Assembly: GCF_015999335.1 (NCBI RefSeq)
Contig: NZ_JAEACP010000032.1
Location: forward strand, 1-37,235
DNA from: Tabrizicola soli
GTDB lineage: Bacteria > Pseudomonadota > Alphaproteobacteria > Rhodobacterales > Rhodobacteraceae
DNA length: 37,235 bases
Reading direction: 5' to 3'
The position numbers and the translations under genes were made by a program. Of this stretch, positions 11,730 through 35,905 are shown piece after piece (the stretch's first letter is position 1; each line of letters opens with the position of its first letter). The notes beneath the pieces were generated by a model. It was given only the letters and a program-made list of their open reading frames with translations, ran no database searches and was not told the origin of the DNA.

Positions 11730-12723
11730 GGCTCCGTTGCACAAATCGCTTGAGGGATTCATCTCGTGAATCCAGCGTGGTAGCTGGTCTGCATGAGCCG
11801 ACCAACACCCCCGACCTACAAGACCAGAAACTGGTCCGCCTATAACGAAGCGCTGAAGCGCCGTGGCTCGCTGACCATCTGGTTCGATCCTTCGATGACT
11901 TGGGTAGCCGCACCCACTGGCAAGCGCGGGCGACAGCGCGACTACAGCGACGCCGCCATCCAGACCTGCCTGACGATGAAGGTGCTGTTCGGCATGGCGC
12001 TACGGCAAACGACAGGGTTTGTTGAGAGCCTGCTACGTCTGATCGGCCTGGACTGGGTTGTGCCCAACTTCAGCACGCTGTCGCGCCGCCAGAAGACCCT
12101 GCAGGTCAACATCCCCTATCGCGGTTCGGACGGCCCGTTGCGCCTGCTGGTCGACAGCACCGGGATCAAGGTCGAAGGCGAAGGCGAGTGCAACGCCCGC
12201 AAGCACGGAGGCACCAAGCGCAGGATCTGGCGCAAGATCCACATCGGGATCGACGAGAAGACACTGGAGATCCGAGCCGCCGAGTTCGCCACCAGCGACG
12301 TGGGGGACGCGCCCATGTTGCCTGCGTTGCTGGACCAGATCCCGCCCGAACAGGAAATCGCCGGCATCACAGCCGATGGTGCTTTCGACACCCGCAAGTG
12401 CCACGACGCCATCGCCGCCCGAGGTGCCGCCGCAATCATCCCGCCCCGCAAGAACGCCAAACCCTGGAACCTGACAGTGCAGGGGCTGTCGCGCGCAACG
12501 AAATCTTGCGGACATCGAAGCGTGTGGGCGAACCATCTGGCGACGACGGAGCGGTTACCACCGCCGAAGCCGCGCTGAAACCAAGATGCACTGCGTCAAA
12601 CTCCTCGGACAGCGCCTGTCGGCGCGGGACTTCGACCGCCAGGTTGCAGAGTTCCAAGTCCATATCGCCGTCCTCAACGGGTTCACCGCCCTCGGCACAC
12701 CCATCACAGAGGTTGCAGGATAG
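11730..12723 (+). pseudogene. IS5-family (IS903-group) transposase, frameshifted, right end lost
   Basis: The left terminal repeat begins at 11730 (GGCTCCGTTGCACAAATCG), and the transposase starts at ATG 11793 (MSRPTPPTYKTRNWSAYNEA). DDE features include LLVDSTGIKVEGEGEC, IADGAFDTRKCHDAI-like text (ITADGAFDTRKCHDAIAARG) and IIPPRKNAKPW. Two one-base losses split the C-terminus: near 12469 (after KPW) and near 12528 (after RTSKRVG). The last frame reads RTIWRRRSGYHRRSRAETKM and ends ITEVAG at the 12721 TAG. The matching right repeat is absent: the sequence passes straight into a TonB-receptor fragment. The element should be inactive. Confidence 0.85.
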
Positions 12724-16459: not shown

Positions 16460-17508
16460 CTAAAGCGTTCGATGCAGCAGCGCCAGCCAATTGGCGTGGG
16501 ACAGCTTTTCCAGCAGCGGCCGGTCATAGCCATGATCGGAGAGCGCCTGAAGCAGCTTCGGCAGGCCCGTCACGTCGTCGATCACGTCGGGAGTCGTGCA
16601 GCCGTCATAGTCGGAGCCGAAGCCGAGATGGTCTTCCCCAAGCCGTTCCAGGAGATGGTCCATCTGGCGCAGGATCGGATCCCAGCCGGTTTCGGGCACC
16701 TGCCGCCCGTCGGGCCGCAGGAACGAGACCGAGAAGTTCAAGCCCACCATGCCGCCGCTGTCGCGGATCATCGCCAGCTGCCGGTCGGTCAGGTTGCGCG
16801 ACGAGGGGCAGATCGCATGGGCGTTGGAATGCGTGGCGACCAGCGGGGCGTCGGAGAGGCGGGCCACGTCGTTGAACCCGGCCTCGTTCATGTGGCTGAG
16901 GTCCAGCATGATCCGCAGCCGGTTGCATTCCTTGACCAGCCGCTTTCCCGCTTCCGTCAGCCCCGGCCCGGTATCGGGTCCGGACGGAAAGGCGAAGGGC
17001 ACGCCGTGGCCGAAGATCGTCGGCCGCGACCAGACCGGCCCCAGCGACCGCAAGCCCATGGCGTGGAACAGGTGGAGCGAATCCAGGCTTTCGTCGATCG
17101 CCTCGGCGCCTTCCATGTGCATGATCGCCGCGATGGTTCCCTCGGCCAGGCAGGCCCGGACCTCGGGCGCGGTGCGGCAGACCTTCAGCGCGCCCTGCGA
17201 GGCGCGTTCCATCCACAGAAGGTGGCCCGCCGCCGTTGCGGCAGGCGTGATCGCGCTGGTGAAGGGGATCGGGTCCGGCAGCGGCAGATCATAGGGCGGG
17301 TTCTGCATCAGCGCCTGGTAATCCGGATCGTTATGCGCGGTCGGGGAGGGAAGGTAGATGGCAAAGAACCCGCCGGCAAACCCGGCGGCCTGCATCCGCG
17401 GCAGGTCGAGGTGACCCTTGCCCTCGCCGGTCAGGAAGATCTCCTCGCGCCGGGCCGGGTCCAGCAGCAGCCGGAGCAGAAGGTCGTTGTGGCCGTCGAA
17501 TACCGGGA

Positions 17509-17512
<4 letters not shown>
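16460..17512 (-). CDS. M19-family (renal-type) membrane dipeptidase homologue
   Basis: 350 residues from ATG 17512, which overlaps the ATPase stop (ATGA); a longer frame to 17665 would lie inside the ATPase gene. Zinc ligands of the M19 amidohydrolase fold are visible: HND at 8-10, Glu134 (HMEGAEAI), His207 (LDLSHMNE), His228 (ATHSNAHAI) and Asp301 (FGSDYDG). The family cleaves dipeptides, often those with a C-terminal D-residue. No signal peptide is seen, so it acts in the cytoplasm on peptides imported by the ABC system encoded in the same operon. Confidence 0.93.
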
Positions 17513-18288
<776 letters not shown>

Positions 18289-18290
18289 GG

Positions 18291-19112
18291 TCAGATCCCG
18301 GCCCGGTCCAGAACCGGCAGGGGACCGCGCGGGCCGCCGATCCGGGGGAGGCAGTTCAGCAGGCCCCTGGTATAGGGATGCCGGGCCTCCAGAAGATGGG
18401 CCGCCTCGATTTCCTCCACGACAAGGCCCTTGTGCATCACCAGCACCCGGTCGCAGAAGCGCGCGACGAGGCGCAGGTCGTGGCTGATGAAGATGAGGCC
18501 CATGCCCCGGTCCCGCACCAGCCCGTCCAGGATCGACAGGACCTCGGCCTGCACCGTCACGTCCAGGGCGCTGGTGGGTTCGTCGGCGATCAGGAGGTCG
18601 GGCTCGGGGATCAGCATCATCGCGATCATCACCCGCTGGCCCATCCCGCCCGAGAGTTCGTGCGGATAGGCGTCCATCACGCGCCTTGGGTCGCGGATCT
18701 GCACCGCCTCCAGCGCGGCGATGGCCTTGGCGGCGGCATCCGCCCGGCCCAGCCCGTCGCGCAGCCGCAAGCCTTCGGTCAACTGGCGGCCGACGGTCAT
18801 CACCGGGTTCAGCGAATATTTCGGGTCCTGCATCACCATGCCGATGCGCTTGCCGCGGAGCGCGCGCATCTCGCGTTCCGGGGCGTGCAGGATGTCCCGG
18901 CCGTCGAAGGTCATCGCATCCGCCTCGATCCGGCCGGGCGGGCGCACCAGGCGCAGCACGGCCCGGCCCGTCATCGTCTTGCCCGAGCCGGACTCGCCCA
19001 CGATCCCCAGACGCTCATGCCCGAGCGAGAACGACACGCCCCGCACCGCCTGGACCTGGCCGGTCTCGGTCGCGAAGGTGACGCGCAGGTTCTTGACCTC
19101 CAGGAGATTCAT
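18291..19112 (-). CDS. peptide ABC transporter ATPase (OppD/DppD type)
   Basis: 273 residues. Walker A GESGSGKTMTGRAVL, OppD-type Q-loop MVMQDPKYSLNPVMTVGRQL, signature LSGGMGQRVMIAMML, Walker B LLIADEPTSALDVTVQAEVL and H-loop LIFISHDLRLVARF are present, as are the C-terminal HPYTRGLLNCLPRI words typical of the subfamily. Its ATG overlaps the permease stop by ATGA, indicating translational coupling. It is somewhat shorter than E. coli OppD (about 330) because the C-terminal extension is reduced. Confidence 0.94.
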   Translation of the reverse strand: MNLLEVKNLRVTFATETGQVQAVRGVSFSLGHERLGIVGESGSGKTMTGRAVLRLVRPPGRIEADAMTFDGRDILHAPEREMRALRGKRIGMVMQDPKYSLNPVMTVGRQLTEGLRLRDGLGRADAAAKAIAALEAVQIRDPRRVMDAYPHELSGGMGQRVMIAMMLIPEPDLLIADEPTSALDVTVQAEVLSILDGLVRDRGMGLIFISHDLRLVARFCDRVLVMHKGLVVEEIEAAHLLEARHPYTRGLLNCLPRIGGPRGPLPVLDRAGI

Positions 19113-20014
19113 CGCGCGGCGCTCCGGGGATCGAGCACATCGCGCAGGCCGTCACCCAGAAGGTTGAAGCCGAGGCTCACGATGAAGATCGCGAGGCCCG
19201 GCATGGTGGCGACCCACCATTGCTCGAAGAGGTATTTGCGGCCCGACGAGATCATCAGCCCCCATTCCGGCGTGGGCGGCAGGACCCCGAGGCCGAGGAA
19301 GCCGAGGCCGGCCGCGATCAGGATGACGCCCGCCATGTCCAGCGTGACCCGGATGACGACCGAGGGCAGGCACATCGGCACCACATGCCCCGCGATGATC
19401 CGCGGGGCGGAGGCGCCCTGAAGCCGGATCGCGGCGATATAGTCCGAGGAGCGGACGGTCAGCGTCTCGGCCCGCGCCACCCTTGCATAGGGCGGCCAGG
19501 CGGTCAGAGCGATGGCGAGGACGGCGTTCTCGATTCCGGGGCCCAGGACGGCGACCAGGGCCAGCGCCAGGATCAACCGGGGGAAGGCCAGGAAGATGTC
19601 GGTCAGGCGCATCAGGGCGGCGTCGATCCAGCCGCCGAAATAGCCCGCGACGGTGCCGATCAGCAGGCCCAGGACCGGGGCCGTGACCGCCACCAGCGCG
19701 ATGATGTACAGCGTGATCCGGGCGCCATGGATGATGCGCGAGAAGATATCGCGGCCAAAATCGTCAGTGCCCAGCAGGTTGCCGGGGGTGCCGGGCGGCA
19801 GAAGCCGGCGCGAGAGGTTCTGGGCCAGCGGGTCGTGCGGCGCGATCAGCGGGGCGAGGATCGCCACCAGGAGAAGAAGCCCGACGATGACCAGCCCCGC
19901 CATCGCCAGCCGGTTGCGCCGGATGCGCTGCCAGGCCAGCCAGGCCTGCCCCAGCCGCGCCTGCCGCCGCGAGGCGGGGTTCGGGTCGCTCAGCCATGCC
20001 CGCAGCGCCGTCAT
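19109..20014 (-). CDS. peptide ABC transporter permease (DppC/OppC type)
   Basis: 301 residues from ATG 20014 (MTALRAWLSDPNPASRRQAR), which overlaps the upstream permease stop; longer in-frame starts lie inside that gene. The N-terminal helix LAMAGLVIVGLLLLVAILAP, the family motif LLGTDDFGRDIFSRIIHGAR and the EAA loop YIAAIRLQGASAPRIIAGHV are characteristic. Further helices include LYIIALVAVTAPVLGLLIG and VILIAAGLGFLGLG. With the DppB-type partner it forms the inner-membrane channel. Confidence 0.94.
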   Translation of the reverse strand: MTALRAWLSDPNPASRRQARLGQAWLAWQRIRRNRLAMAGLVIVGLLLLVAILAPLIAPHDPLAQNLSRRLLPPGTPGNLLGTDDFGRDIFSRIIHGARITLYIIALVAVTAPVLGLLIGTVAGYFGGWIDAALMRLTDIFLAFPRLILALALVAVLGPGIENAVLAIALTAWPPYARVARAETLTVRSSDYIAAIRLQGASAPRIIAGHVVPMCLPSVVIRVTLDMAGVILIAAGLGFLGLGVLPPTPEWGLMISSGRKYLFEQWWVATMPGLAIFIVSLGFNLLGDGLRDVLDPRSAAR

Positions 20015-21075
20015 GCCCGCGCCCTCGGATCGACCAGCCGGTACAGAATGTCCGACGCCATGTTCAGCGTCACGAAGGCGACGCCTACCACCACGGTCCC
20101 GCCCAACACGGCGGGCATGTCGGCGGCAAAGAGCGCATCGGTGATATAGCTGCCAAGGCCCGGCCAGGCGAAGATCGTCTCGGTCAGGACCGAGCCTTCC
20201 AGCAGGTAGGCGTAGGACAGCGCGATGACGGTGATCAGCGGCACGGCCACGTTCTTCATCGCATGGACCCAGATCACACGCCACTCCGGCATCCCCTTCA
20301 CGCGGGCGGTGGTGATGTATTCCTGGCCAAGCTCGTTCATCATGAAGCTGCGGGTCATCCGGCTGATGTAGGCCATCGAGACATAGCCCAGAAGCCCCGC
20401 GGGCAGGACGATATGGCTGACCGCGTTGCCGAACACGTCCCAGGCGCCGTTCAGCGCGGCGTCGATCAGGATCATCCCGGTGTAGCTGGTCAGGGTGAAC
20501 TCCATCATCATGTCATAGGTCGGGTCCAGCCGGCCGGGCCCCGCGACCCAATCGAGTTGGCCGTAGAAGACCAGAAGGCCGATCAGCCCCAGCCAGAAGA
20601 CCGGCATCGAATAGCCCATCAGCCCCACCACCCGCACGACCTGGTCGGCAATGCTGCCGGGCCGGGTGGCAGCCAGTACCCCGGCGGGCACCCCGACCAG
20701 CGTGCCGAAGATGGTGCCGAGCGTGGCAAGCTCCAGTGTCGCGGGGAAATAGCGCGCGATCTCGGAGGTCACGCTTTGGCCCGTGCGGATCGAATTGCCG
20801 AGGTCGCCCTGCACCGCATCCCTCACGTAGATGAGGAACTGTTGCCAGAGCGGCAGGTCGAGCCCCAGCTTGTCGCGGATGGCGGCGATCTGGGCCGGGG
20901 TCGCGCGTTCGCCGACGATCGACAGCACGGGGTCGGTCGGCACGACGCGGGCGATGACGAAGGTGATCAGAAGCAGTCCCAGCAGGGTGATGGCCAGGGT
21001 GCCAAGCCCAAGCGCGACCTGCCCCAGAAGGGGAAGCAGGCGGCTGCGCGGGGACGGTACGGGGATTCCGGTCAT
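20011..21075 (-). CDS. peptide ABC transporter permease (DppB/OppB type)
   Basis: 354 residues. Helix 1 (LGTLAITLLGLLLITFVIAR) leads into the DppB signature VVPTDPVLSIVGERATPAQI then LGLDLPLWQQFLIYVRDAVQ GDLGNSI. The EAA loop YITTARVKGMPEWRVIWVHA precedes the last helices, with FAWPGLGSYITDALFAADMP near the C-terminus. It is slightly longer than most DppB proteins because of an insert around GPGRLDPTYDMMMEFTLTSY. It lies 43 nt after the binding-protein stop, with a strong hairpin in between. Confidence 0.94.
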   Translation of the reverse strand: MTGIPVPSPRSRLLPLLGQVALGLGTLAITLLGLLLITFVIARVVPTDPVLSIVGERATPAQIAAIRDKLGLDLPLWQQFLIYVRDAVQGDLGNSIRTGQSVTSEIARYFPATLELATLGTIFGTLVGVPAGVLAATRPGSIADQVVRVVGLMGYSMPVFWLGLIGLLVFYGQLDWVAGPGRLDPTYDMMMEFTLTSYTGMILIDAALNGAWDVFGNAVSHIVLPAGLLGYVSMAYISRMTRSFMMNELGQEYITTARVKGMPEWRVIWVHAMKNVAVPLITVIALSYAYLLEGSVLTETIFAWPGLGSYITDALFAADMPAVLGGTVVVGVAFVTLNMASDILYRLVDPRARA

Positions 21076-21085
21076 GCAAGACTTG

Positions 21086-21111
21086 GGCCGCCGCCGGATT
21101 CGGCGGCGGCC
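21086..21111 (-). terminator. stem-loop between peptide-binding protein and permease genes
   Basis: A perfect 10-bp GC-only stem (GGCCGCCGCC / GGCGGCGGCC) with a 6-nt loop starts 8 nt after the binding-protein stop. No T-run follows. Its position suggests differential expression: abundant binding-protein mRNA and partial read-through to the permeases. Confidence 0.65.
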
Positions 21112-21118
21112 CTATCGC

Positions 21119-22717
21119 TTACTTGGTGACAGTCCAGTAGGACGCCGAGTCGGTCGCCCCACCGGCATAGAAGCCCGCCACATTGGCGCGCATCGCGTCC
21201 TGCCGCGCCTGCTGGAACATCATCACGAAAGCCGACCCGTCGCGGTGCTTGCGCTGGATTTCCTCATACATCGCCTTGCGTTTTTCGGTGTCCTTCTCAA
21301 GCACGGCCGCCTCGGTCATCGCGTGCAGCTCGCCCGGATCCCATGCCGTCCGCCAGGCGAGGTAGCCGGTGTTGCCCGCCTCGTCGCTGTTGTCGGGGTT
21401 CATCGCGAAGGTCGAGGCGTTGGTATGCGGGTCAGGATAGTCCGGCCCCCAGGTCTGGATCGTGATGTCGTGCTGGCGGGCGCGATACTTCTCCAGCACC
21501 TGCGCGCCGTCTCCCACGTCGAGGACCAGGTTGATGCCGATCTGCGAGAAGGTGTTCTGCAGCGAGGTCGCAATGTCCAGACGCTCCGGATTGTTGCGGA
21601 CCGTGAGGCCGACTTCCAGCGGCAGCGTCACGCCCGATTCCGCCAGAAGCGCCTTGGCCTTTTCGACGTCCAGGCTGTAGGGCGTCTCGGTCAGCGCGCC
21701 GAGGAAGCCCTGCGGCAGGAAGGCCTGGTGCACGACCCATTGGCCCTTCAGGATCGAGTCGGTCATGCCGGCATAGTCGACGGCCCACCGCATCGCCTCC
21801 TGAACCTTTGGGTTGGCCAGTTCCGGCTTCTTCTGGTTCAGCGCCAGATAGTAGATCTGCCCGCCCACGTCGTTCTGCACGGTGATATCGGCATTGCCGG
21901 CCAGCCCCTCGATATCGGTCGGGGTCAGCTCGCGGGCAATGTCGATGTCGCCCTTCTCCAGCAGCAGCCGCTGTGTCGCGCCTTCGGGGATGTGCTGCAT
22001 GAAGACGTTCTTGATCTTGGCGTCGCCGCGCCAGTGGCCTTCCCGCGCTTCCAGCACATAGCCTTCGTTCGGCTTGAACGACTTCAGCACATAGGCCCCG
22101 GTTCCGGCGCTGTTCGACTTCAGCCAAGCATTGCCCATGTCGCCCTCGACCTCGTTCGCCATCACCGTCTTGACGTCGACGATGTTGGCAACCCCCGCGG
22201 TCAGGCAGTTGTAGACGAAGGATGGCGCATAGGCCTTGTCGGTCTTCAGGGTGACGGTATCCCCCTCGAAGGTGATCGTCTGGTCGACATTCTCCGGCGT
22301 CAGGCCGAACTGGGTCAGGATGAAGGCGGGCGTCTTGTTCAGCTTGACGACCCGACGCAGCGACAGCGCCGCGTCTTCCGCCGTCAGCGGATTGCCGCTG
22401 GAGAAGGTGATGCCGGACTTCATCTTGAAGGTATAGGTCAGGCCATCGTCCGATACCGCCCAGCTTTCGGCCAGACCGGGCACCAGCTCGCCCGGCTTGG
22501 TGGGATCAAGCTCGATCAGGGTGTCGTAGACGTTGTTGTTCAGGTCGACGCCCGAAAACTCGAACGCCTCATGCGGGTCGATCGACACGATGTCGTCGAT
22601 GGCATCGGCCAGCACCAGCGTATCGGCCGGCGTCTCGGCCATGAGTGCCATGGGTGCGGTGCCGGCCATCAGCGCGGCAAGGGCTGCCGCACGGCCGAAT
22701 CCATGCTTCAGTTGCAT
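21119..22717 (-). CDS. peptide ABC transporter periplasmic binding protein (family 5)
   Basis: 532 residues from ATG 22717 with AGGGAGA about 8 nt upstream; an upstream in-frame start adds 31 residues of poor signal character. The signal peptide is residues 1-27 (MQLKHGFGRAAALAALMAGT ... ALMA, cleavage before ETPADT). SBP_bac_5 features are VYDTLIELDPTKPGELVPGL then AESWAVSDDGLTYTFKMKSG in the first 120 residues, and TWGPDYPDPHTNASTFAMNP near the C-terminus. It captures peptides or related compounds for the Dpp/Opp-type importer. The downstream M19 enzyme argues for dipeptides. Confidence 0.93.
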   Translation of the reverse strand: MQLKHGFGRAAALAALMAGTAPMALMAETPADTLVLADAIDDIVSIDPHEAFEFSGVDLNNNVYDTLIELDPTKPGELVPGLAESWAVSDDGLTYTFKMKSGITFSSGNPLTAEDAALSLRRVVKLNKTPAFILTQFGLTPENVDQTITFEGDTVTLKTDKAYAPSFVYNCLTAGVANIVDVKTVMANEVEGDMGNAWLKSNSAGTGAYVLKSFKPNEGYVLEAREGHWRGDAKIKNVFMQHIPEGATQRLLLEKGDIDIARELTPTDIEGLAGNADITVQNDVGGQIYYLALNQKKPELANPKVQEAMRWAVDYAGMTDSILKGQWVVHQAFLPQGFLGALTETPYSLDVEKAKALLAESGVTLPLEVGLTVRNNPERLDIATSLQNTFSQIGINLVLDVGDGAQVLEKYRARQHDITIQTWGPDYPDPHTNASTFAMNPDNSDEAGNTGYLAWRTAWDPGELHAMTEAAVLEKDTEKRKAMYEEIQRKHRDGSAFVMMFQQARQDAMRANVAGFYAGGATDSASYWTVTK

Positions 22718-22899
22718 CGTCCATCTCCCTGTGATTGTTCGCTGAGGAGCCGACAGGCGCCAGATCCTGTCCGGATTGGATGAAAGCGGCGGGCAGGAGT
22801 CAATGGCCAACCGTCGGCTTCAGCACGCGAATCTTCAGTGCCCATGGCGCGAGCGGGAATCCGGACGGATCCCGGTTGCGGACCCATTCCCGAAGGTGG

Positions 22900-23925
22900 T
22901 CATTTCCCGTAATACTCCCGGAACCATTCGACGAACCGGGCGATCCCATCCCGGAAATCCGTCTGCGGCCGGTATCCGGTCAACCGCTGCAACAGGCCTG
23001 CGTCGGCCCAGGTGGCGGGCACATCGCCCTTCTGCATCGGCATGTAGTTGCGGATCGCCGTCTTGCCGAGACTCTCCTCGATCGCATCCACGAAATCCAT
23101 GAGCCGCACCTTGTCGGAATTGCCGATGTTCACGATCCGGAAGGGGGCGACGGGCGAGAGGCTGTCCCCCTCGGGCACGATTCCATCCGCCGGGCGCTCG
23201 GGCACGGCGTCGATCAGAAGCCGGATGCCGCGGACCAGATCGTCGACATAGGTAAAGTCGCGATACATGTCGCCGTGGTTGTAGATGTCGATCGGCCGGT
23301 CATCCAGGATCGCATCGACGAACTTGTAGAGCGCGAGATCGGGCCGGCCCCAGGTTCCATAGACGGTGAAGAACCGGAACATCGTGGTCGGCAGGTTCCA
23401 CAGATGGGCATAGGCATGCGCCATGCTCTCGTTGGCCTTCTTGGTCGCCGCATAGATCGTGAGCTGGGTGTCGGCCTTTTCGGTCTCGGTGAAGGGCATC
23501 TCGGTATTGGCGCCGTAGACCGAGGAGGTGGAGGCCATGAGGAGATGCCGCACCTCAAGGCGGCGCGCGGCCTCCATCACGTTGAAGCTGCCGATGACAT
23601 TGGCATCGAGATAGGCGCGCGGGTTCTCGAGGCTGTAGCGCACCCCGGCCTGGGCCGCGAGATGGATGATGATCCCGGGGCGGAACTCGTCCGCGACGGC
23701 ATCGAGGCGCGCCTGATCCTCGAGCAACGCTTCGGTCGCGGTGAAGTTCGGGCTTTGCAACAGCATGGCATGCCGGCGCTGCTTCAGCGTGACGTCGTAA
23801 TAGTCGGTCATCCCGTCATAGCCATGGACCCGGAACCCCTCGGCCAGAAGCAGCCGCGCGAGGTGGAAGCCGATGAACCCGGCGGTTCCGGTGATCAGCA
23901 CGCGGCGCAGAGGGGCGTCAGTCAT
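22900..23925 (-). CDS. UDP-glucuronate 4-epimerase-like NAD-dependent epimerase
   Basis: 341 residues from ATG 23925, with AGGAG about 9 nt upstream. It is an extended SDR: NAD-binding GTAGFIG at 13-19, then [40 protein letters not shown], catalytic STSSVYG with YAATKKANE, and [20 protein letters not shown]. These match LpsL/Cap1J-type enzymes that interconvert UDP-GlcA and UDP-GalA. The product would feed capsule or LPS synthesis, in line with the glycosyltransferase genes further right. The 182-nt gap to the peptide-binding gene (22718-22899) has only a weak imperfect hairpin near 22854-22874. Confidence 0.92.
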
Positions 23926-24063
23926 GGTGGTGTTCTCCTGAACAGGTGCGATTGTCATCCAACGGGGCGCGGTTTTAGACAAGGGGCGCAATTGCCCGGC
24001 GCTAGATGTTTGATCCGACGGCTTGATGGTGCGATCCTCTCGAGGGGAATGGAAGGAAGCACT

Positions 24064-24424
24064 ATGGGGCAGGTTCGTCACGGGAGCGCCACGACCACGT
24101 TCGCCGTCATAGCTGCGATACAGCGATCGCACGCCGAAGGCCCGCCCGCCATCGTTCGGGACTGAGGGTCCACACAACTGGCCGGGAACTGGGCATCGAT
24201 CCCAAGACGGTCGCCAAGTGGCGGAAGCGGGCGACAGTCGCCGATCGCAAGACCGGGCCGAAGGCGCCACGCTCAATATGGCCGAGGCGGAGGAGGCGAT
24301 GATCGTCGCCTTCCGGCGCCATGCGCTGCTGTCGCTAGACGGCTGTCTCTATGCTCTCCAGCGTCGATCCCGCATCTGACCCGCTCTGCTCTGTGCCGGT
24401 GCCTGCAGCGGGGAATGGGGCCGC
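24064..24424 (+). pseudogene. IS481-family transposase, N-terminal remnant with frameshifts
   Basis: ATG 24064 reads [20 protein letters not shown], the standard IS481 start (MGQVLHGSATTTEAVRRAIQ). Another frame continues [20 protein letters not shown] then [10 protein letters not shown], and a third reads [25 protein letters not shown] and finally PHLTRSALCRCLQR before similarity stops. These are the HTH and linker of the family. At least two frameshifts are present and the DDE domain is missing. The region 23926-24063 holds no gene. Confidence 0.82.
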
Positions 24425-26298: not shown

Positions 26299-26332
26299 CG
26301 AAAACGGCGCAATTTGCAGAAATGGACGCGGC

Positions 26333-27856
26333 ATGCTGGCCAACCTGACCGAGGTCAAACTCGTCCTTGCGATGCATCGGTCGGGCAGTTCGCTCTTGAC
26401 GGGCGCACTTCAGGCCGCCGGTGCGGGCCTTGGCCAGTTCGAGGATTCCAGGAACTGGGCAAATCCGTCCGGTTATTTCGAGAACCCCGTGATCCGCGAC
26501 TTCGGCGATGCCCTTCTGGCCCGATTGAACGCCAGTTGGGACAACTGGGGTTTTCGTCCCGACGCAGCCGAACTTGCCGGTCCTGCCTTTTCCGATTTAC
26601 GCCACCGCGCAGTCGACCTGTTGCACGAGGTCAATACGACTGCCGATGGCCCCCTGCTGATCAAAGACCCCCGTATCGCCCAGATTCTGCCGTTCTGGGA
26701 GCAGGCCCTGTCCGAGGCGGGTATCGCCCGCCGGCGTCTTCTTCTGGTCAGGGATCCGGCCGAGGTCGCAACCAGCCAATGCGCCCGGGCCGCGCGTGCG
26801 CCGAAATGGCATCCCTGTCTGCGGCACCCGGAGCCGGTCTGCGCCTTGTGGGCCCAGACCATGCATACGGTGCTGACCAGTCTGGGCGATGATGCAACGT
26901 TACTGATCCTGCACGACGACCTTTATCGCGCGCCTCGGGACACCGCGCTGGCCGCCGCACAGTTTCTGGGCATGGACCCGAAAATCGAGGCGTTGGACGC
27001 ATTTCTGGCGACACAGTTCTCGGCAGACCTGCGCCGCTCGCAACCGGCTTCGGGGCTTGGCATGTGGGGGAAACTGGCCAGACAGATTTTCCACGATCTG
27101 GCGCAAATCTCTGGCCCGCGCATCCTGACGCGGAACGAGGCGCAAGATATCGCAAGGCGGCAGGTCGAGTTGGTCGGCATCCAACCCTGTCTGCCTGCTG
27201 TGCAGCAGAGTCTGGCTGCCGTGCGAGACCAGGTGCCGCCCCCCGTTGCGCAACCCGCGCCGGCCCCACCGCAGCAGAAGTCCACCAACGGCACTTTGCG
27301 CGCCGCGACCCGCGATGCCATCAGCCGGTTTCTTTTTGTGCAAGACAAGCCGGAACACGTCGACCTTGCCTTTGTCCTTGGCAGCCCGGCCGTCAATAGC
27401 CTCTTCCCGGCACTTGCTCTTTTTCAGGCCAATTTGATCAAGCACATCCTGATTTCGGGAGGCGGACCGACAAGCGGGGGCATTCCCGAATGGATGCTTT
27501 ACCGCGATCATGCCGTGGACGCCGGTGTGCCGCCCAAGGCTTTGCTTCTGGAAAAATACGGGCGCAACACACTTGAGAATTTCGCGTTCGGGGCAACACT
27601 GGTCGAGCGGGAAATCGGCTGGACGACGCTTTCCTCGATCGGTATCTGCGCCAAGCCCTTTCACATGCAACGCGCCTTGATGACGGCGCGGCGCTTCATC
27701 CCCGCTCATGTGCGCCTTCTGGCCTTTCCGGCAGAGCATCCCGACAACCTGTCCCGGACCTCATGGGCCGATACCCCAGCCGGCACCAAAAGGGTTTTGC
27801 AGGAATTGGGCAAGATCAGCAAATATGCCCTTCAAGGAGATTTCGATGCCGACTGA
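26333..27856 (+). CDS. sulfotransferase-YdcF (DUF218) fusion protein
   Basis: 507 residues from ATG 26333; in-frame ATGs at 26285 and 26270 would overlap the previous gene. The N-terminal half has the PAPS-binding loop LVLAMHRSGSSLLTGALQ (11-28) and RRRLLLVRDPAEVATSQCAR, typical of sulfotransferase-like proteins. A Pro/Gln/Ala linker (PPPVAQPAPAPPQQKS) joins it to a YdcF/SanA/ElyC-type domain at about 344-500: DLAFVLGSPAVNSLFPALAL, HILISGGGPTSGG, KYGRNTLENFAFG and FHMQRALMTARRF. YdcF domains act in envelope biogenesis or bind nucleotide-like ligands. The fusion places both steps on one polymer or precursor. It overlaps the next gene by 11 nt. Confidence 0.82.
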   Translation: MLANLTEVKLVLAMHRSGSSLLTGALQAAGAGLGQFEDSRNWANPSGYFENPVIRDFGDALLARLNASWDNWGFRPDAAELAGPAFSDLRHRAVDLLHEVNTTADGPLLIKDPRIAQILPFWEQALSEAGIARRRLLLVRDPAEVATSQCARAARAPKWHPCLRHPEPVCALWAQTMHTVLTSLGDDATLLILHDDLYRAPRDTALAAAQFLGMDPKIEALDAFLATQFSADLRRSQPASGLGMWGKLARQIFHDLAQISGPRILTRNEAQDIARRQVELVGIQPCLPAVQQSLAAVRDQVPPPVAQPAPAPPQQKSTNGTLRAATRDAISRFLFVQDKPEHVDLAFVLGSPAVNSLFPALALFQANLIKHILISGGGPTSGGIPEWMLYRDHAVDAGVPPKALLLEKYGRNTLENFAFGATLVEREIGWTTLSSIGICAKPFHMQRALMTARRFIPAHVRLLAFPAEHPDNLSRTSWADTPAGTKRVLQELGKISKYALQGDFDAD

Positions 27857-30800
27857 GACCGGCAAGGTGTTGCTGATCGGGATCGGCGGCAGCGGAATGT
27901 TGCCGCTGGCACTCTTGATGCAAGAGGCAGGCCATCGGGTCGAAGGGCTCGACCCCGCCCTTACCCCAGCACGGCGCGACCTGCTGCAAGGCCGCGGCAT
28001 CGTGATCCATGACGGAACTTCGCCCGAAATTCTTGCCGAAGTGCAACGGGTCATTGCCAGCCCCGCCGTGCCGCAGCACCATCCCTTGCTGCGCGCTGCG
28101 CGGCGGGACGGGAAAGAGATCGAATGGCGGCCGGAGGCGCTGGCCCGTCTGCTGCGGGGCCGCCGGTGCATCGGCGTTGCGGGCAGCCACGGGAAGTCCA
28201 CGACGACCGCGATGCTGATCCACATCCTGTCGCAAGAGGCACCGGACACCGGCTGTTTCCTCGGGGCCGAAGTCGCAGGCACAGCACCCGCACGCTGGGG
28301 CGATGCCGGTTCGGAGTTCGTATTCGAGGCCTGCGAGGCCCATGGCGCGCTGTCGGTCTGGCAGCCGGCTCATCTCGTGCTGACAAACCTCGATGACGAT
28401 CACGCCGCGCATTATGGCGGTCAATCTGGCCTGGAGGCCGCCTTTCTGGCGCTTGCCCGACGCGTTCCTGTCAATGGCAGAGTGGTGGTCTGCGGGGATG
28501 ACCCCAAACTGCGGGCGCTGATCGCGCAACTGGATCGGCTGACGGTGACCTATGGCTTCAATCCTGACAATCTTCTGTCCGCCCGCGCACTCGCGACCGG
28601 ACAGACAGGCCTGGTCTGGGCCGGACAAAGCCTTGGCCCCCTGCATATGCGCCTTCCCGGGCGACACAACCAATTGAATGCTATGGCCGCGATTGCAATG
28701 GCTTGCGAAAGGGGCGTCCTCCCAAGGCGCGCCCTTGCGGCCTTGGCAACCTTCAAGGGCGTCGACCGCAGGTTGCAAGACGTGGGTCATGCCGAAGGCC
28801 CGCGCATTCTGGAAGATTTCGCCCATCATCCGACCGAAATTGCCGCATCGATTGCGGCACTGCGGGGCACCGGCGGGCGCGTGGTGGCCGTGCTGCAACC
28901 GCAGCTTGGCAGTCGCGTGCGCGACATGGCAGGGGCTTTCGCGCAAGCACTGGCGCAGGCCGACTGGCGGCTGGTCCTGCCCGTCGAAACACTCGGAGAA
29001 ACGGTTCGGACCGGGGAAGCCGACAGGATATTGGCCGAAGCCTGCGCCACGGCAGGGTCGGACATCGACCCGGTGGCCAACCTTCCCGATCTCCTGCGCC
29101 AGTTGAAGGCGGGCGTCCGGCCCGACGATGTGGTGATAGTCATGGCGGGCCGGTCGGGCGAGGGGCTGGCACAGCAGATCGCCGCCGCCTGCGCATCCCT
29201 CGAGCGGACGTCAGAGACCGCCTCGGTCGTCTACGGGCGCAAGACAACCTTGGCCGACAATCTGGTCGACGCCATCGCGACCCGCGCCCATACCAGACCC
29301 GGCGCCCCCGCCGTCCAGATGGGACGGCGCAAACTGACCTATGGTCAATTGATGGCCCGTTCGCACGATCTGGCGATAGCCTTGCGGACCAAAGGAGTGG
29401 CGGCAGGTCAGCCGGTTGCCGTCTGCCTTGGCCGCAGCCTTGACCGTGTTGTGGCCTTTCTTGCTATCCTGCGGCTGGGAGCGGTCTATCTGCCGGTCGA
29501 CCCGCATCAGCCGGCAGAGCGGATCAAGATGATGCTGCAGGATTCCACGACCCGCCATGTCATCGTGAACGCCGCAAGCCCCGCCCTGCCAGACCTTGGC
29601 CTTGCGCTCGTGAACTGCGGCAGCATTGCCGACAGGGATTTCAGACCCGCCGACCTTGCCCGGCTTGCCTTGTCGGGTGCGCCCCCGGGCCCGCAGGACG
29701 CGGCCTATCTGATCTTCACTTCGGGCAGCACGGGACGCCCCAAGGGCGTCCTGGTGGAACATGGCAATATCGCCAACTTTGCCGCCGCCGCCGCCAAGCA
29801 TTTCGCGATCACGCCAAAGGCGCGGGTGTCGCTTGTCACGGGGTTCGGCTTTGATGTTTCGGTGGGCGACATGGCCATGACGCTTGCCGCGGGCGGTTGC
29901 CTTGTGCTGCCGACCGATATCGAGGCGCTGCCCGGCGCGGCAATGGCGCGGTTCCTGCGGCAAAGCAGCATTTCGCATCTTTCCACGACGCCGTCGACGC
30001 TGACCACGATCCCGGCAGGGGATTTTCCCGATCTGGCCTGCGTCATCGTGATCGGAGAGGTTTGCCCTCCCGCCCTGGTCGGGAGATGGGCCAAGGGCCA
30101 GCGGTTTTTCAACGCCTACGGGCCGACCGAGGCCACCGTCGAGGCCACCTTTGCCGAATGCCGCATCGGCGCGCCCGTGACCATCGGGCGCCCGTTCGAC
30201 AATATGGCGGCCTGCGTCCTGGACGCGGCACACAGGCCCGTGCCCCGTGGGCAAGCGGGCGAGCTGGGCCTTTTCGGCCTTGGTGTGGCGCGCGGATATC
30301 TGAACCAGCCCGACCGCACGGCGGCGCGCTTCGTCATGGTCGGTATGCCCGACGGCACCGAACAGCGGGTCTATCTGACCGGCGACCGTGCCGTCATGGA
30401 TGCCGGAGGCGAACTCCGGTTTCTGGGGCGGCTTGATGACCAGATCAAATTTCGTGGCCACCGGATAGAACCCGGAGAGATCGAGGCCGTTCTTTGCGAT
30501 TTCCCGATGATCCGCGAGGCAAGCCTGTCGAAAACCGCGACCGGCCAGACCGAACGGCTGATCGCCCATGTGGTGCTGCACCCCGAGGTGCAGGCGCTGG
30601 ATCATGCGGCGCTGAGGACGCATCTGGATAAGCGGCTTCCGGCCTATATGCACCCCGCCGTGATCCTGCCGATTGCCGCATTTCCCTGCACCGCCAATGG
30701 CAAGCTGGATCGTTCCGATTTGCCCGTGCCGCCTGCCGTTCTGGTTCCGGCACCGGGGCGGACGCCTCACAGTGCGACGGAAAGGCGCTTGCTAGAACTG

Positions 30801-31682
30801 CTGCGTGACACCGACAGCGGGATCGCGGTGCAAGGTGTCCGCGAAAGCCTGAGCGACGCGGGCTTGGATTCCCTCGGGCTGGCGGGCTTTATCATGAGCA
30901 TCGAGTCCGATTTCGGGATCATCCTGGATCTGTCGCTGGACGCGGGTGGCGATACGATCGAGGCGCTCGGGATCGCCGTGGAGCAGCGCAAGCTGATGCA
31001 GCAGGCTGCTCCCGACGGCGATCATGGTGACGCATTGGCTGCGGCGCTCCGCCCTTACCTGACGCTTTGGCCCGGCGCGCGCAGGGGCATGGAGGGATTG
31101 GTCCATGATCTTGCCGCGGCACCGCCGACCGCCCCTGCGCTGTTCTGGTGCTTTCAATCCGGCGACGAATTCGCTTCACTGACGGCCGCTCTTGGCGCAC
31201 GGGTCCGATTGTTCGGACTGCGCTCGGGCCATCTTGTGTTTGACTACGACGCCCGGACGGTCGCGGCATTGGCCGCGCTTTACGCCGACGAGATCGCATC
31301 CGTTGACCGGCACGGCATTCTGACCTTGGGCGGCAATTGTCAGGGCGGGATGGTGATGGCCGAAGTGGCGCATGAGTTGCGGCGGCGGGGGCGGCAGGTG
31401 GCCCTGACCGTGCTGATGGAACAGGGCCGCTTCCATCCCCTATCGGGCGAGGTGCTTTTGCTGTTCGGTGCCCGAAGCTACCTGAATCCCTACGGTCAGA
31501 TCGAGGCCCCCGAGCGCCTGTTCCGGCAGGCCTTTGGCGACGGGTTCCGCGTCTGCATGTTGCCGGGCGATCATGGCCAGTATTTTCAACAGGCCAACGT
31601 AGGCGCGCTGGCGGATATCCTTGTGGCGCGGATCAATGATTGCCTGTGTGGCAATGCGCAGACATCGACAGCGGCGCGATAG
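27846..31682 (+). CDS. MurC-like ligase / NRPS adenylation / carrier / Cys-thioesterase fusion
   Basis: 1278 residues from ATG 27846, preceded by AAGGAGA; a longer frame from 27708 lies inside the previous gene. Residues 1-455 form a full MurC-like ligase: GIGGSGM (12-18), ATP loop GSHGKSTTT (113-121), NLDDDHAAHYGG and the C-terminal EDFAHHPTEI. About 465-960 is an adenylation domain with YLIFTSGSTGRPKGV, FDVSVGD, NAYGPTE, YLTGD, GRLDDQIKFRGHRIEPGEIE and NGKLDR (Lys953). A carrier domain has its phosphopantetheine Ser at 1009 (GLDSL). About 1095-1265 is a thioesterase with GNCQG (Cys1165) and GDH (His1243). No condensation domain exists. It should activate one amino acid and pass it on, while the Mur part makes an amide on a carboxylate. 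Confidence 0.9.
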   Translation: MPTETGKVLLIGIGGSGMLPLALLMQEAGHRVEGLDPALTPARRDLLQGRGIVIHDGTSPEILAEVQRVIASPAVPQHHPLLRAARRDGKEIEWRPEALARLLRGRRCIGVAGSHGKSTTTAMLIHILSQEAPDTGCFLGAEVAGTAPARWGDAGSEFVFEACEAHGALSVWQPAHLVLTNLDDDHAAHYGGQSGLEAAFLALARRVPVNGRVVVCGDDPKLRALIAQLDRLTVTYGFNPDNLLSARALATGQTGLVWAGQSLGPLHMRLPGRHNQLNAMAAIAMACERGVLPRRALAALATFKGVDRRLQDVGHAEGPRILEDFAHHPTEIAASIAALRGTGGRVVAVLQPQLGSRVRDMAGAFAQALAQADWRLVLPVETLGETVRTGEADRILAEACATAGSDIDPVANLPDLLRQLKAGVRPDDVVIVMAGRSGEGLAQQIAAACASLERTSETASVVYGRKTTLADNLVDAIATRAHTRPGAPAVQMGRRKLTYGQLMARSHDLAIALRTKGVAAGQPVAVCLGRSLDRVVAFLAILRLGAVYLPVDPHQPAERIKMMLQDSTTRHVIVNAASPALPDLGLALVNCGSIADRDFRPADLARLALSGAPPGPQDAAYLIFTSGSTGRPKGVLVEHGNIANFAAAAAKHFAITPKARVSLVTGFGFDVSVGDMAMTLAAGGCLVLPTDIEALPGAAMARFLRQSSISHLSTTPSTLTTIPAGDFPDLACVIVIGEVCPPALVGRWAKGQRFFNAYGPTEATVEATFAECRIGAPVTIGRPFDNMAACVLDAAHRPVPRGQAGELGLFGLGVARGYLNQPDRTAARFVMVGMPDGTEQRVYLTGDRAVMDAGGELRFLGRLDDQIKFRGHRIEPGEIEAVLCDFPMIREASLSKTATGQTERLIAHVVLHPEVQALDHAALRTHLDKRLPAYMHPAVILPIAAFPCTANGKLDRSDLPVPPAVLVPAPGRTPHSATERRLLELLRDTDSGIAVQGVRESLSDAGLDSLGLAGFIMSIESDFGIILDLSLDAGGDTIEALGIAVEQRKLMQQAAPDGDHGDALAAALRPYLTLWPGARRGMEGLVHDLAAAPPTAPALFWCFQSGDEFASLTAALGARVRLFGLRSGHLVFDYDARTVAALAALYADEIASVDRHGILTLGGNCQGGMVMAEVAHELRRRGRQVALTVLMEQGRFHPLSGEVLLLFGARSYLNPYGQIEAPERLFRQAFGDGFRVCMLPGDHGQYFQQANVGALADILVARINDCLCGNAQTSTAAR

Positions 31683-33129: not shown

Positions 33130-33810
33130 TTGCCCAAAGTCTCTTTCCTCGTCGTCGGGGCGCAGAAATCTGGGACCACGACCCTGCACCATCATCTGGC
33201 GCAGCAACCGGATCTCTACCTGCCGGGCTGCAAGGAAGTGCATTTCTTTGATGGTGACAGCCGCGATTGGTCCTCTCCCGACTACCGCGCCTATGAGGCG
33301 TTCCTCACCGCCGCCGCATCGACGCAGATCTGCGGCGAAGCAACGCCCGCCTATATGGTCCATCGCCGGTTTCTGGAACGTATCCGTGCCTATAATCCCC
33401 AGATGCGCTTGATTGCCGTGCTGCGCCATCCTGTGGAACGGGCATGGTCGAATTGGCGGATGCTTGTGACACAAGGCGCCGAGACGCTGCCCTTTGCTCA
33501 GGCAATCCGGGACAGGCGAAACAGGATTGCGAAGAACTGGCGCGCGTACAGCTATGTCGAACGCGGCTTTTATGCCGATCAGATTGCCAATATACTGGAC
33601 CTCTTTCCAGCAGGAAACTGCCATTTCCTGCTGACCGAGGACCTAGCGCGGGATCCAACGGCCGCGATTGGCGGCACCTGCGCCCTTCTGGATTGCCCGT
33701 CGCCTCGGCTGCCAGTCCAGCCGAAAGTGGTCAAACTCTTGGAAAGCCGCAACCTTGGCCCGCTTTCGCCTAATGAGTTCGGTCTGAACAAAGCGGTCAG
33801 GCGGCCCTGA
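33130..33810 (+). pseudogene. PAPS-dependent sulfotransferase, C-terminus replaced by IS sequence
   Basis: The frame starts at TTG 33130; no ATG or GTG is available since the previous stop. It reads PKVSFLVVGAQKSGTTTLHH, the canonical 5'-phosphosulfate loop, then HFFDGDSRDW, GEATPAYMVH and MRLIAVLRHPVERAWSNWRM, the 3'-phosphate site with its Arg and Ser. It is a heparan-sulfate-type sulfotransferase. The last 20 or so residues are encoded by the end of the IS5 element that begins near 33770, so the natural C-terminus (usually 40-70 more residues) is lost. Residual activity cannot be excluded. Confidence 0.8.
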
Positions 33811-35140
33811 AGGTCTGATGTTGCCGATCTTGAGGAGTTTGTGCGGTCCACAGGGCTGCGATGATCGAGGGAAGCCAAGCCCTGAGGTGCGCCAGGATCT
33901 TTCGGATGTTGTGCCCGCAGGCGCAGAGGACGGCAAAGAGGGCATCGCCTATCGTGCCTTTCAGCGGGCATCGCGACAGGAGACCGTCGGTCTTCATGTG
34001 GCCGATTTCAGCCTCGATGGCGCTTCGGCACCGGAGGTCAACAATCAGCCTGGGCGTCAAGCCGCATCGACTGCCGCTGATCAGGACGCGGGTTTTGTCT
34101 TCATCGTGGCCCTTGTAGCCGCGATCGACGACAGCCAGATCGGGACGCTGGTCGGTGAGGACCTCGACCTGACCCAGCGTTTTCCTCAGGGTGTGACCGT
34201 CGTATGGGCTACCCGGAAAGCTGCGCATGCCAACCACGAAGCCCTCGTCCAGCGTGGTGGCTACACCGACCTTGCAGCCAAACTCATAGCGGACGCGGGC
34301 TTTGCCCTTGGAGATGCAAGCGACCTCGGGCTCATGCAGGGCATAGATCTTGTCGCCGCCCTTGGGCTGCTGATGCAGGAGTTGCGAGACCAACGCGAGC
34401 TTGGCGATGACCCGATCCCGCAGGCCTCCCTCGGGGATGTCCGCAAGGTGGCGCCTGAGATCCCGCATCACCCGTCCCGTGTAGCCCTTGAGCTTTTTCA
34501 AGGCCTTGCGCATCCGCTTGAATTGCCTGGCGTGGGCATAGCGGCCCACCTGCAGCGCGAGCCGTGGCGCAAGGCGGGCGTAGCTGCAGGTCCACCTCTG
34601 CCTCCTGCGCCAGGTCCACCAGCTGTTCTTGCGCCCGCTCGTAAAGCCGGGCTTCCGTGGGATGGGTGATGTTCTTCTCCATGACCGTCGTATCGATTGC
34701 GACGCGCTTGATGCTGTCCTCGTCGATGGTGCCGGACTTCTGCCCAGCCTGGATCGTCAGGGTCAGCAGCCATTCGACGGCATCTTCCCCGATCCGCCCA
34801 CGCCAACGGGTCAGAGACGAGGGATCGATCGGCAGCCGGTGCTGGAAGAAGACCTCACAGGTGAGGTGCTGGTAATGTGGGTTCTCGACCCAGCGGGCGA
34901 CCACCGCCTTATCCGACAGGCGATAGGCATGCTGGAGATACAGCAGACCGGCACCAGCCGCGGTTCTGTCGCGGGCCTCCTCTTGTGGGACGGAAAGAAG
35001 CCGGCCCACTCCCGCTCGAAGACCTCCGAGTCGATCAGCGCCGCCAATTTCACGAGCTCGTGCCGCGGGTCGATCATATCAACCAGCCGCGGGCGCAGCA
35101 GATCATCCTGTTCCGGGAGGCGCTTAATAGACTGAACCGA
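33797..35140 (-). pseudogene. IS5-family transposase (IS5-group, long form), frameshifted
   Basis: The minus strand reads RLPEQDDLLRPRLVDMIDPR then HELVKLAALIDSEVFEREWA in one frame. It continues GLLYLQHAYRLSDKAVVARW and RVAIDTTVMEKNITHPTEAR in a second, and RYAHARQFKRMRKALKKLKG, VDRGYKGHDED and AIEAEIGHMKTDGLLSRCPL in a third, ending at 33797. DDE residues are recognisable. Frame 1 to 2 needs a lost G in GTGGCC near 34975. Frame 2 to 3 fits a 5-nt loss near 34590. The natural start is unclear. I could not define its inverted repeats. It truncates the sulfotransferase gene. Confidence 0.85.
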
Positions 35141-35249
35141 AATTGCAGGGTTTCGACCAAAAACATAAAAATCCTGCGGGAAAAGGCAACACAAAACGCC
35201 TAAATACGCCAAGAAATCAATGGGTTGGAATTTGTCCAAGGCAAATTAA

Positions 35250-35905
35250 CTAGGTGTTCAGTCCCGGCATGTGGTGGATTGGGCTCAGGATGAATCTGTC
35301 TGGCTCTGATGTCCATATCTTGCAGATGTATTCGTAGGGGGTTGAGGCCGTTGAGGGTCTTGAGCCTGCGCGCGAAGTTATAGACCGCCATGAAGTCGGC
35401 GAGGTGCGTTCGCAGCTGGTCATGACTGTCGTAATGGAAGCGTTTGACGGTGGCCTCCTTGATCGTGCGGTTCATCCGTTCAACCTGGCCGTTCCAAGGA
35501 TGGTTGGACTTAATCAGCCTGTGCTCGATCCCGTTTGCCTCACAGATCATGTCGAAGCGCATCGCCGGGAGTAGATGGTGTTCCGATTCGGAGGCTGCTC
35601 TGCGAACTGAATGCCGTTATCGGTGAGAATGGTGTGAACCCGATAGGGCACGGCTTCGAGCATATACTGAAGGAACTCCCAGGCTGTCTTCCTGTCGGCT
35701 TTGTCGATGAGTTGGGCCACGGCGAACTTGCTCGTGCGGTCGATGCCGACAAACAAATGTAGTTTGCCTTCAGCGGTCTGAACCTCGGCAATATCGATAT
35801 GGAAGAACCCTATGGGATAGCGTTTGAACTTCGATCGCTTCGGCTTGTCGCCCTCCACATGAGGCAGGCGCGAGATGCCATGACGCTGCAGGCAGCGGTG
35901 CAGCG
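35250..35905 (-). pseudogene. IS481-family transposase, C-terminal two-thirds, frameshifted
   Basis: The minus strand starts abruptly at LHRCLQRHGISRLP and continues EGDKPKRSKFKRYPIGFFHI, DIAEVQTAEGKLHLFVGIDR and LTDNGIQFAEQPPNRN. It then changes frame near 35563 (one C lost, IYSR to MRFDM), reading MICEANGIEHRLIKSNHPW, NGQVERMNRTIKEATVKRFH. A one-base gain near 35340 precedes the natural C-terminus ending MPGLNT at 35250. The rve catalytic domain is complete in outline, but a codon is lost in HPW-NGQ and the HTH is missing. It abuts the IS110 remnant directly. Confidence 0.86.

Follow-up and report, generated by a model that had tools for sequence, protein, structure and literature searches.

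Among the described enzymes closest to the protein considered here is MurC, where His376, Arg377, Arg380, Tyr346 and His348 of the H. influenzae enzyme are believed to contact the incoming amino acid (excerpt of PMC3060825); another is the single-module nonribosomal peptide synthetase (NRPS) built of condensation (C), adenylation (A), peptidyl carrier (PCP) and thioesterase (TE) domains, e.g., AB3403 of A. baumannii (PDB 4zxh). In 37,235 nt of a contig of Tabrizicola soli (the window, i.e., the whole stretch of DNA that was analysed), a MurC-like ligase and A, PCP and TE domains are encoded by a single intact open reading frame (ORF) of 1278 codons for amino acids, at 27846–31682 of the plus strand. 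Where AB3403 has its condensation domain, this protein has the Mur ligase, and no PF00668 condensation domain is found in it by the Pfam search, which bears out the layout proposed in the initial annotation. Fusions of MurC with Ddl or MurB (clusters P0221, P0234, P0235 and P0240 of our second protein search) likewise join MurC to another enzyme, but their partners are other wall enzymes, not NRPS domains. No characterised enzyme of the Mur–A–PCP–TE order has been found in the titles and abstract beginnings listed by searches of the open-licence PubMed Central literature, in agreement with the earlier statement that none was known; the nearest case among them is a predicted operon comprising genes for a Mur ligase and a cyclodipeptide synthase (excerpt of PMC2922099).

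The fusion of the Mur ligase with A–PCP–TE is confirmed as a genuine single protein, and it recurs as an uncharacterised enzyme family of its own, which is real, conserved and apparently undescribed. Judging from domain order and conserved residues, we tentatively propose, with a probability of roughly 0.4, that these proteins may be one-module synthetases in which a MurC-type ATP-dependent ligase takes the place of the condensation domain and joins a carboxylate similar to that of UDP-N-acetylmuramic acid (UDP-MurNAc) to an aminoacyl-PCP.

A recurrent family of Mur–A–PCP–TE proteins

The main protein search yielded 298 hits; among the best 120 of them, P0002 is the window protein, P0003–P0101 are 99 further clusters with Mur and adenylation domains, and the matches from P0102 on are ordinary NRPSs. 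The search with a Synechococcus member as the query adds 23 more Mur-plus-A clusters (P0145–P0165, P0167 and P0168; best 120 of 355 hits). Looking for the same order in other genomes, as the initial annotation suggested, thus gives at least 122 other clusters over both searches, some of them partial. Named members come from Sinirhodobacter, Paracoccus, Pararhodobacter, Parvibaculum, Asticcacaulis and an uncultured Roseococcus among alphaproteobacteria, as well as from Synechococcus. An assembly join of two unrelated genes, the event that would have undone the earlier proposal, is ruled out by these homologues carrying Mur and A in one protein: at least 99 other clusters in the main search do so, some of them on long contigs, the fusion also resides on a complete circular plasmid, and in the window the frame is open throughout, with no break in GC content over 27–32 kb. 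The family alignment comprises 101 rows (P0001–P0101), of which a few are partial and two, P0001 and P0002, represent the same protein; in 96 rows, the catalytic residues of Mur and of the TE are found in one protein and are aligned in this order.

The distribution of the fusion is patchy. It is present in two of 32 genomes of the window's genus (G000, the window's own, and G019) and in four of 18 genomes of the G101 genus (G101, G805, G808 and G811). The TE profile at 1e-15 has 14 matches among 394 sampled Rhodobacteraceae genomes, and the Mur fusion is found in three (G000, G101 and G207) of the 11 whose DNA was read, that is, all except G120, G387 and G424; in the class, the profile matches three of 385 sampled genomes, the window's own included, with G043 left out of the DNA reading. 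In G605, another of these three, no Mur is seen in the 134 residues before the A domain, the frame being cut by the contig start. A fifth genome of the G101 genus, G806, has an operon remnant (L168, G806:C1:162001–180000) in which DUF218 and Mur still align but the adenylation domain stops after some 75 residues; the 18 kb examined do not contain the rest. Of 72,556 plasmid records, one carries a relative that matches over 80% or more of the length. Scanning of genome contigs with the full-length alignment retrieves mostly ordinary adenylation domains, with one fusion locus (L013) in the best 80.

Domains of the fusion protein

The Mur part resembles MurC in its three Mur domains, P-loop, catalytic residues and best solved relatives, the first 13 of which are all labelled MurC (among them 6cau, 2f00 and 1gqq). 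The Mur catalytic residues are present: Glu161, Glu164, His186, Asn278, Arg309 and Asp324 are invariant in 101/101 rows, Lys117 is Lys in all 98 rows with a residue at this position, and the glycine loop and Asp36 are also kept. It differs from MurC by a TIGR01082 (MurC) score of 294 bits, under the cut-off of 335.1, by the replacement of His376 and Arg377, by the attached A–PCP–TE, and by its position in the Mur tree; the score with TIGR01081 (Mpl) is 148.7 bits against a cut-off of 388.7. This tree has 55 sequences, and all 36 from the family are united in a single clade (support 100/99), separate from four paralogues and from 15 MurC sequences, including four that belong to other fusions; the MurC–Ddl and MurC–MurB proteins are placed with MurC and the paralogues, across the 100/99 branch. 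The Mur middle domain is matched six times in the window's genome: one match is the fusion gene, one is a separate MurC by sequence motifs, and the other four are read, by position and score only, as putative MurD, MurE, MurF and FolC. Recent capture of the host's own murC is ruled out by the separate clade of the sampled Mur domains together with the separate MurC in the genome. Several alphaproteobacteria also have a MurC paralogue (L156–L159) with DDF[AG]HNP and QPHGF motifs, forming its own clade (100/100).

The MurC contacts of the incoming amino acid were mapped onto the family by hand from the alignment with solved relatives, and the L-Ala pocket is not retained as a full set. The equivalent of His348 is kept in 101/101 rows and that of Arg380 in 100; the Tyr346 position has Phe in 80 rows and Tyr in 19, the His376 position is never His (Gln in 87, Leu in 13, Arg in one), and the Arg377 position is Arg in just two rows (Leu in 90), hence replaced in 99. 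Since both His376 and Arg377 are replaced, while housekeeping MurC proteins read from the genomes have [QE]PHR at this site in 11/11 cases, the acceptor pocket has changed family-wide. In the numbering of the window protein, Gln353 is present in 87, Leu354 in 90 and Arg357 in 100 of the 101 rows, and residues 351–358 come in 30 variants.

The A domain scores 391.5 bits with TIGR01733 (cut-off 317.4), and 241.5 bits with TIGR01734, the D-alanine ligase DltA, whose cut-off is 559.85. Its core Asp670 is present in 101/101 rows and Lys953 in 99/99 rows with a residue; the carrier domain matches PF00550 with 22.6 bits (cut-off 20.8), and Ser1009 is likewise found in 99/99 rows with a residue. The A-domain codes vary widely, 47 different ones being present in 99 rows, and the code of the window protein, DVGTIIAVEK, has no match in the excerpt of PMC12283262. 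It is probably the A domain that selects the amino acid.

The protein ends with a thioesterase fold with both the nucleophile and the His. Residue 1165 is Cys in 99/99 rows with a residue, and in 96/96 rows it is separated from His1243 by exactly 77 residues, placing the His 78 positions on. The TEs of ObiF (obafluorin; Cys1146 and His1284, PMC6668435) and SulM (sulfazecin; Cys2818 and His2956, PMC11298585), as described in the excerpts of these papers, have the His 138 positions after the Cys in both cases. As the fusion TE is 60 residues shorter, within the lid-bearing stretch, it appears to have little lid. Its acid, taken as the one at the usual position, is Glu1192 (96/101 rows), 27 residues past the Cys; this assignment, inferred from position, differs from the Asp of the AB3403 triad, and in ObiF and SulM the acid is elsewhere.

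Fourteen TE relatives without Mur were compared, and all of them have the Cys, followed by Gln in 13. Three, from other genomes of the bacterial family (L117, L118 and L120), are C–A–PCP–TE proteins with this TE type by Pfam, and their condensation domains (residues 6–319, 52–465 and 36–328, respectively) occupy the place of Mur in the fusion. L119 is A–PCP–sulfotransferase–TE by Pfam, a 1144-aa protein encoded at L119:2997–6431 (minus strand) beside a thiamine-diphosphate enzyme; L121 has no Pfam match at all, and in other relatives the TE either accompanies an A domain, with no Mur, or stands alone. In the TE tree, after dropping five of the 14 ordinary NRPS rows as too short, the 14 non-Mur and 23 Mur-type TEs split from the nine ordinary NRPS TEs (100/99), and the TEs of L117 and L118 lie inside a 20-row group containing 17 Mur-type ones (86/91). 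The parts have been shuffled, with the C and Mur versions sharing the TE type and the slot.

Gene neighbourhood

Eight distinct fusion loci were read: the window, plasmid pAMI4 of Paracoccus aminophilus (L093), G101 (L115), G207 (L116), G019 (L123), G808 (L142), G811 (L143), and Rhodobacter capsulatus DSM 1710 (L013, counted once with L144 of G805). In all eight, DUF218/YdcF is directly upstream of the Mur fusion or fused: the stop of the DUF218 gene overlaps the start of the fusion gene by 11 bases in the window, the overlap is eight bases in P. aminophilus, in G019 the two form one protein, and in R. capsulatus a short gap apparently separates them. Moreover, among the matches listed, at least seven clusters (P0080, P0083, P0086, P0093, P0098, P0158 and P0163) have DUF218 in the same protein as Mur and A. 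The DUF218 match in the window (27362–27805) is the sole one in its genome at E 0.001, and comparison of this sequence with solved structures gives one chance-level match only, to a designed protein (E 0.048). In E. coli, DUF218 proteins are linked to peptidoglycan and common-antigen synthesis, their biochemical role being still open (excerpt of PMC12176290).

Downstream genes are more variable. A glycoside hydrolase family 3 (GH3) gene is found in four of the eight loci (L093, L115, L116 and L142). For the one in L115, the best NCBIfam model is beta-N-acetylhexosaminidase (170.4 bits), the NagZ (PRK05337) cut-off of 207 is not reached, and the best solved relatives are N-acetylglucosaminidases; the GH3 neighbour in the relatives shows KHFPG.G..DSH, which we take to be the NagZ signature. 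In G019 the fusion is followed by a methyltransferase and a flavin monooxygenase-like protein, and in P0009, P0012 and P0078 a glycosyltransferase-like part, recognised by eye, is fused at the C-terminus.

In the window, five closely spaced genes on one strand follow the order sulfotransferase-like, sulfotransferase-like–DUF218, synthetase, glycosyltransferase-like, sulfotransferase (Table 1). The glycosyltransferase-like protein matches PF13524 with E 0.17, far under the cut-off, while relative P0133 is over it; the profile of this protein has no match among solved structures to E 1. The last sulfotransferase is probably cut short (226 aa against about 270–310 aa in the best solved relatives).

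Table 1. Coordinates of the fusion-protein domains and neighbouring features in the window
Feature	Position	Strand	Comment
Sulfotransferase-like ORF, 373 aa	25177..26298	+	GMHKTGST nucleotide-loop motif by eye; no Pfam hit
Sulfotransferase-like domain fused to DUF218/YdcF	26330..27856	+	ORF opens at 26261, start 26330 chosen; sulfotransferase match weak, below cut-off
Shine-Dalgarno AAGGAG of the fusion gene	27834..27839	+	
MurC-like ligase, about residues 1–450	27846..29195	+	Catalytic residues K117, E161, H186, N278, R309, D324
Adenylation domain, about residues 471–960	29256..30725	+	D670 and K953 present; code DVGTIIAVEK
Carrier domain	30822..30968	+	PF00550 at residues 993–1041; phosphopantetheine Ser1009
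Short-lid thioesterase, residues 1075–1260	31068..31625	+	Cys1165 in GGNCQGG, Glu1192, His1243
Glycosyltransferase-like protein, 456 aa	31699..33069	+	ATG at 31699, 17 bases past the fusion-gene stop
Sulfotransferase, 226 aa	33130..33810	+	Solved relatives: 3rnl (Sulfotransferase) as the best, followed by heparan sulfate 3-O-sulfotransferases

Insertion sequences flank the operon on both sides, at 11793–12578 (plus strand), a transposase-like ORF whose relative in P. aminophilus is an IS5-type transposase, and at 33797–35562, where transposase-like frames on the minus strand (33797–35009) abut the 3' end of the last sulfotransferase ORF. Other genes on the minus strand include, at 16460–22810, those for a membrane dipeptidase M19 and for a family-5 solute-binding protein, between which ABC transporter genes are recognised by eye. 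The segment 4438–11532, also on the minus strand, has a gene of the trimethylamine methyltransferase (MTTB) family and one for an FMN/FAD oxidoreductase, together with what looks by eye like an ABC transporter, whose substrates may be quaternary amines. Elsewhere in the same genome, a 617-aa homologue of the 373-aa sulfotransferase-like ORF (E 4e-91) is found beside another A–PCP–TE. A second locus of this genome (L126, G000:C1:139479–145136) encodes an adenylation–TE protein without Mur, with the Cys nucleophile, near which a relative of the first sulfotransferase-like gene is fused to a methyltransferase domain, the neighbours being glycosyltransferase-like by eye.

Possible reactions and their implications

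If the Mur domain condenses, the A domain would activate one amino acid and load it onto Ser1009 of the PCP; the Mur domain would activate the carboxylate of a UDP-MurNAc-like nucleotide sugar as an acyl phosphate, its coupling partner being the amine of the aminoacyl-S-PCP and not that of a free amino acid; and the sugar–aminoacyl chain would move to Cys1165 of the TE and then to an acceptor or water. The role of Mur as the condensing unit is suggested by the C domain standing in the same slot in three enzymes with this TE type. A UDP-sugar substrate suits the MurC-like fold, Asp36 and the glycine loop, and a wall-precursor-like sugar is suggested by this fold together with DUF218 (8/8 loci) and the NagZ-like GH3 (4/8). 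Because the Mur part is MurC-like, by the 294 bits with TIGR01082 and by solved relatives, a UDP-MurNAc-like carboxylate is, in our opinion, a better guess than the uronate or peptide C-terminus of the initial annotation, whose suggestion of two bond-forming activities in one protein is supported by the domain set. DUF218 may then act on the sugar-nucleotide or lipid-linked product, and lineage-specific decoration may be provided by the glycosyltransferase-like protein and sulfotransferases in the window, the NagZ-like GH3 in other Rhodobacterales, and the methyltransferase and flavin monooxygenase-like protein in G019. The broader proposal, which we hold with less conviction, is that a nucleotide-sugar carboxylate (UDP-MurNAc or a relative) may be the starter, joined to the carrier-bound amino acid and released by the short-lid Cys TE, and that the products may constitute a class of wall-precursor-derived aminoacyl sugars with their own operon of DUF218, synthetase and variable tailoring genes.

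A number of observations weigh against condensation by Mur. The link between the C and Mur versions lies in the TE and the position alone, because the A tree disagrees: the Mur-type A domains fall in two clades of 16 and seven rows, with unsettled bootstrap, and the A domains of L117 and L118 group with neither, so that a simple C-to-Mur swap before an unchanged A–PCP–TE is not backed by this tree. The TE of L120 is in another part of the TE tree, and six of the 23 Mur-type TEs are outside the 20-row group, the finer support being moderate. The stretch containing the Mur–A linker (residues 433 to 499) ranges in length from 51 to 110 residues across the family. As for the uracil contacts of H. 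influenzae MurC, Ile87 is kept in kind (Ile or Val in 97/101 rows), but His70 is His in only 29/101 (Thr in the window protein) and no conservation is seen at Ile50; with two of three contacts not kept, the nucleotide may differ. DUF218 is also present without the fusion in both genera surveyed, and hence is not exclusive to it, and the window and three more of the loci read have no GH3. Finally, the retained Arg380 equivalent suits a free amino acid with its carboxylate.

This Arg leaves room for two separate reactions on one product, with Mur adding a constant free amino acid to the UDP-sugar carboxylate in the MurC manner, and A–PCP–TE passing another amino acid, the variable one, to an amine or hydroxyl of the resulting product, the Cys TE being the transferase. 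The His348 equivalent is kept as well, the TE is Cys-type and short-lidded, and the core of the Mur pocket is nearly constant while the A codes vary, as would be expected if Mur always used the same amino acid. However, none of the 101 rows retains His376 and only two retain Arg377, the condensation domain in the same place of three same-TE enzymes is left unexplained, and an acceptor amine or hydroxyl is required on the first product; we consider such a scheme less likely than condensation by Mur.

Decoration of a surface glycan, where Mur would couple amino acids to a uronic acid and the sulfotransferases and glycosyltransferase would build the same polysaccharide, draws on the heparan sulfate 3-O-sulfotransferases among the solved relatives of the window sulfotransferase, on the glycosyltransferase-like gene in the operon, and on a nucleotide-sugar epimerase-type gene 3.5 kb away (22900–24276). 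This gene is on the opposite strand and under the cut-off of the best 25 of 26 NCBIfam models; the Mur part resembles MurC and retains the glycine loop and Asp36; no conserved uronate genes are seen near the relatives in the eight loci read; and the 30 features listed round the P. aminophilus genes, an incomplete table, include no glycosyltransferase or polymer gene, with a sulfotransferase about 4 kb downstream. The genes that travel with the fusion are DUF218 and, in half of the loci, the NagZ-like GH3, and we regard this scheme as rather improbable. The earlier interpretation is thus upheld in part: the two predicted activities, the missing condensation domain and the uncharacterised order stand, while uronate decoration is little supported.

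Ring closure of the loaded amino acid to a beta-lactone or beta-lactam by an obafluorin/sulfazecin-type Cys TE, with sulfation as in monobactams, seems improbable to a still greater degree. It is suggested by the GxCxG motif, tied to lactone formation in ObiF (excerpt of PMC6668435), by the sulfotransferases beside the window gene, and by the A–PCP–sulfotransferase–TE relative. The lid, however, is far shorter, and two SulM criteria given in the excerpt of PMC11298585 speak against a sulfazecin-type TE: the motif is Asn–Cys–Gln instead of Gln–Cys–Asn, and there is no Asp about 30 residues before the His, position II of SulM, placed by spacing to the His, falling on Leu1213 and Asn1214 (the latter Asn in 98/101 rows), with Glu at 1192 in 96/101. 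A backup wall enzyme, i.e., a second MurC or an Mpl-like recycling ligase fused by chance to an NRPS remnant, is very improbable, as the MurC-like fold with conserved catalytic residues and the DUF218 and NagZ-like neighbours that speak for it are opposed by the family-wide conservation of the A, PCP and TE catalytic residues, the TIGR01082 and TIGR01081 scores under their cut-offs, and the patchy presence in 2/32 and 4/18 genomes of two genera.

Public record names of family members mostly reflect one half of the protein, either MurC or the adenylation protein, and the family is therefore easily missed or misread. If Mur condenses, NRPS modules could form amide bonds with an acyl phosphate in place of a thioester as the donor, and sugar nucleotides of primary metabolism could enter assembly lines directly; the DUF218 proteins would, in turn, gain a neighbouring partner with a predictable substrate.

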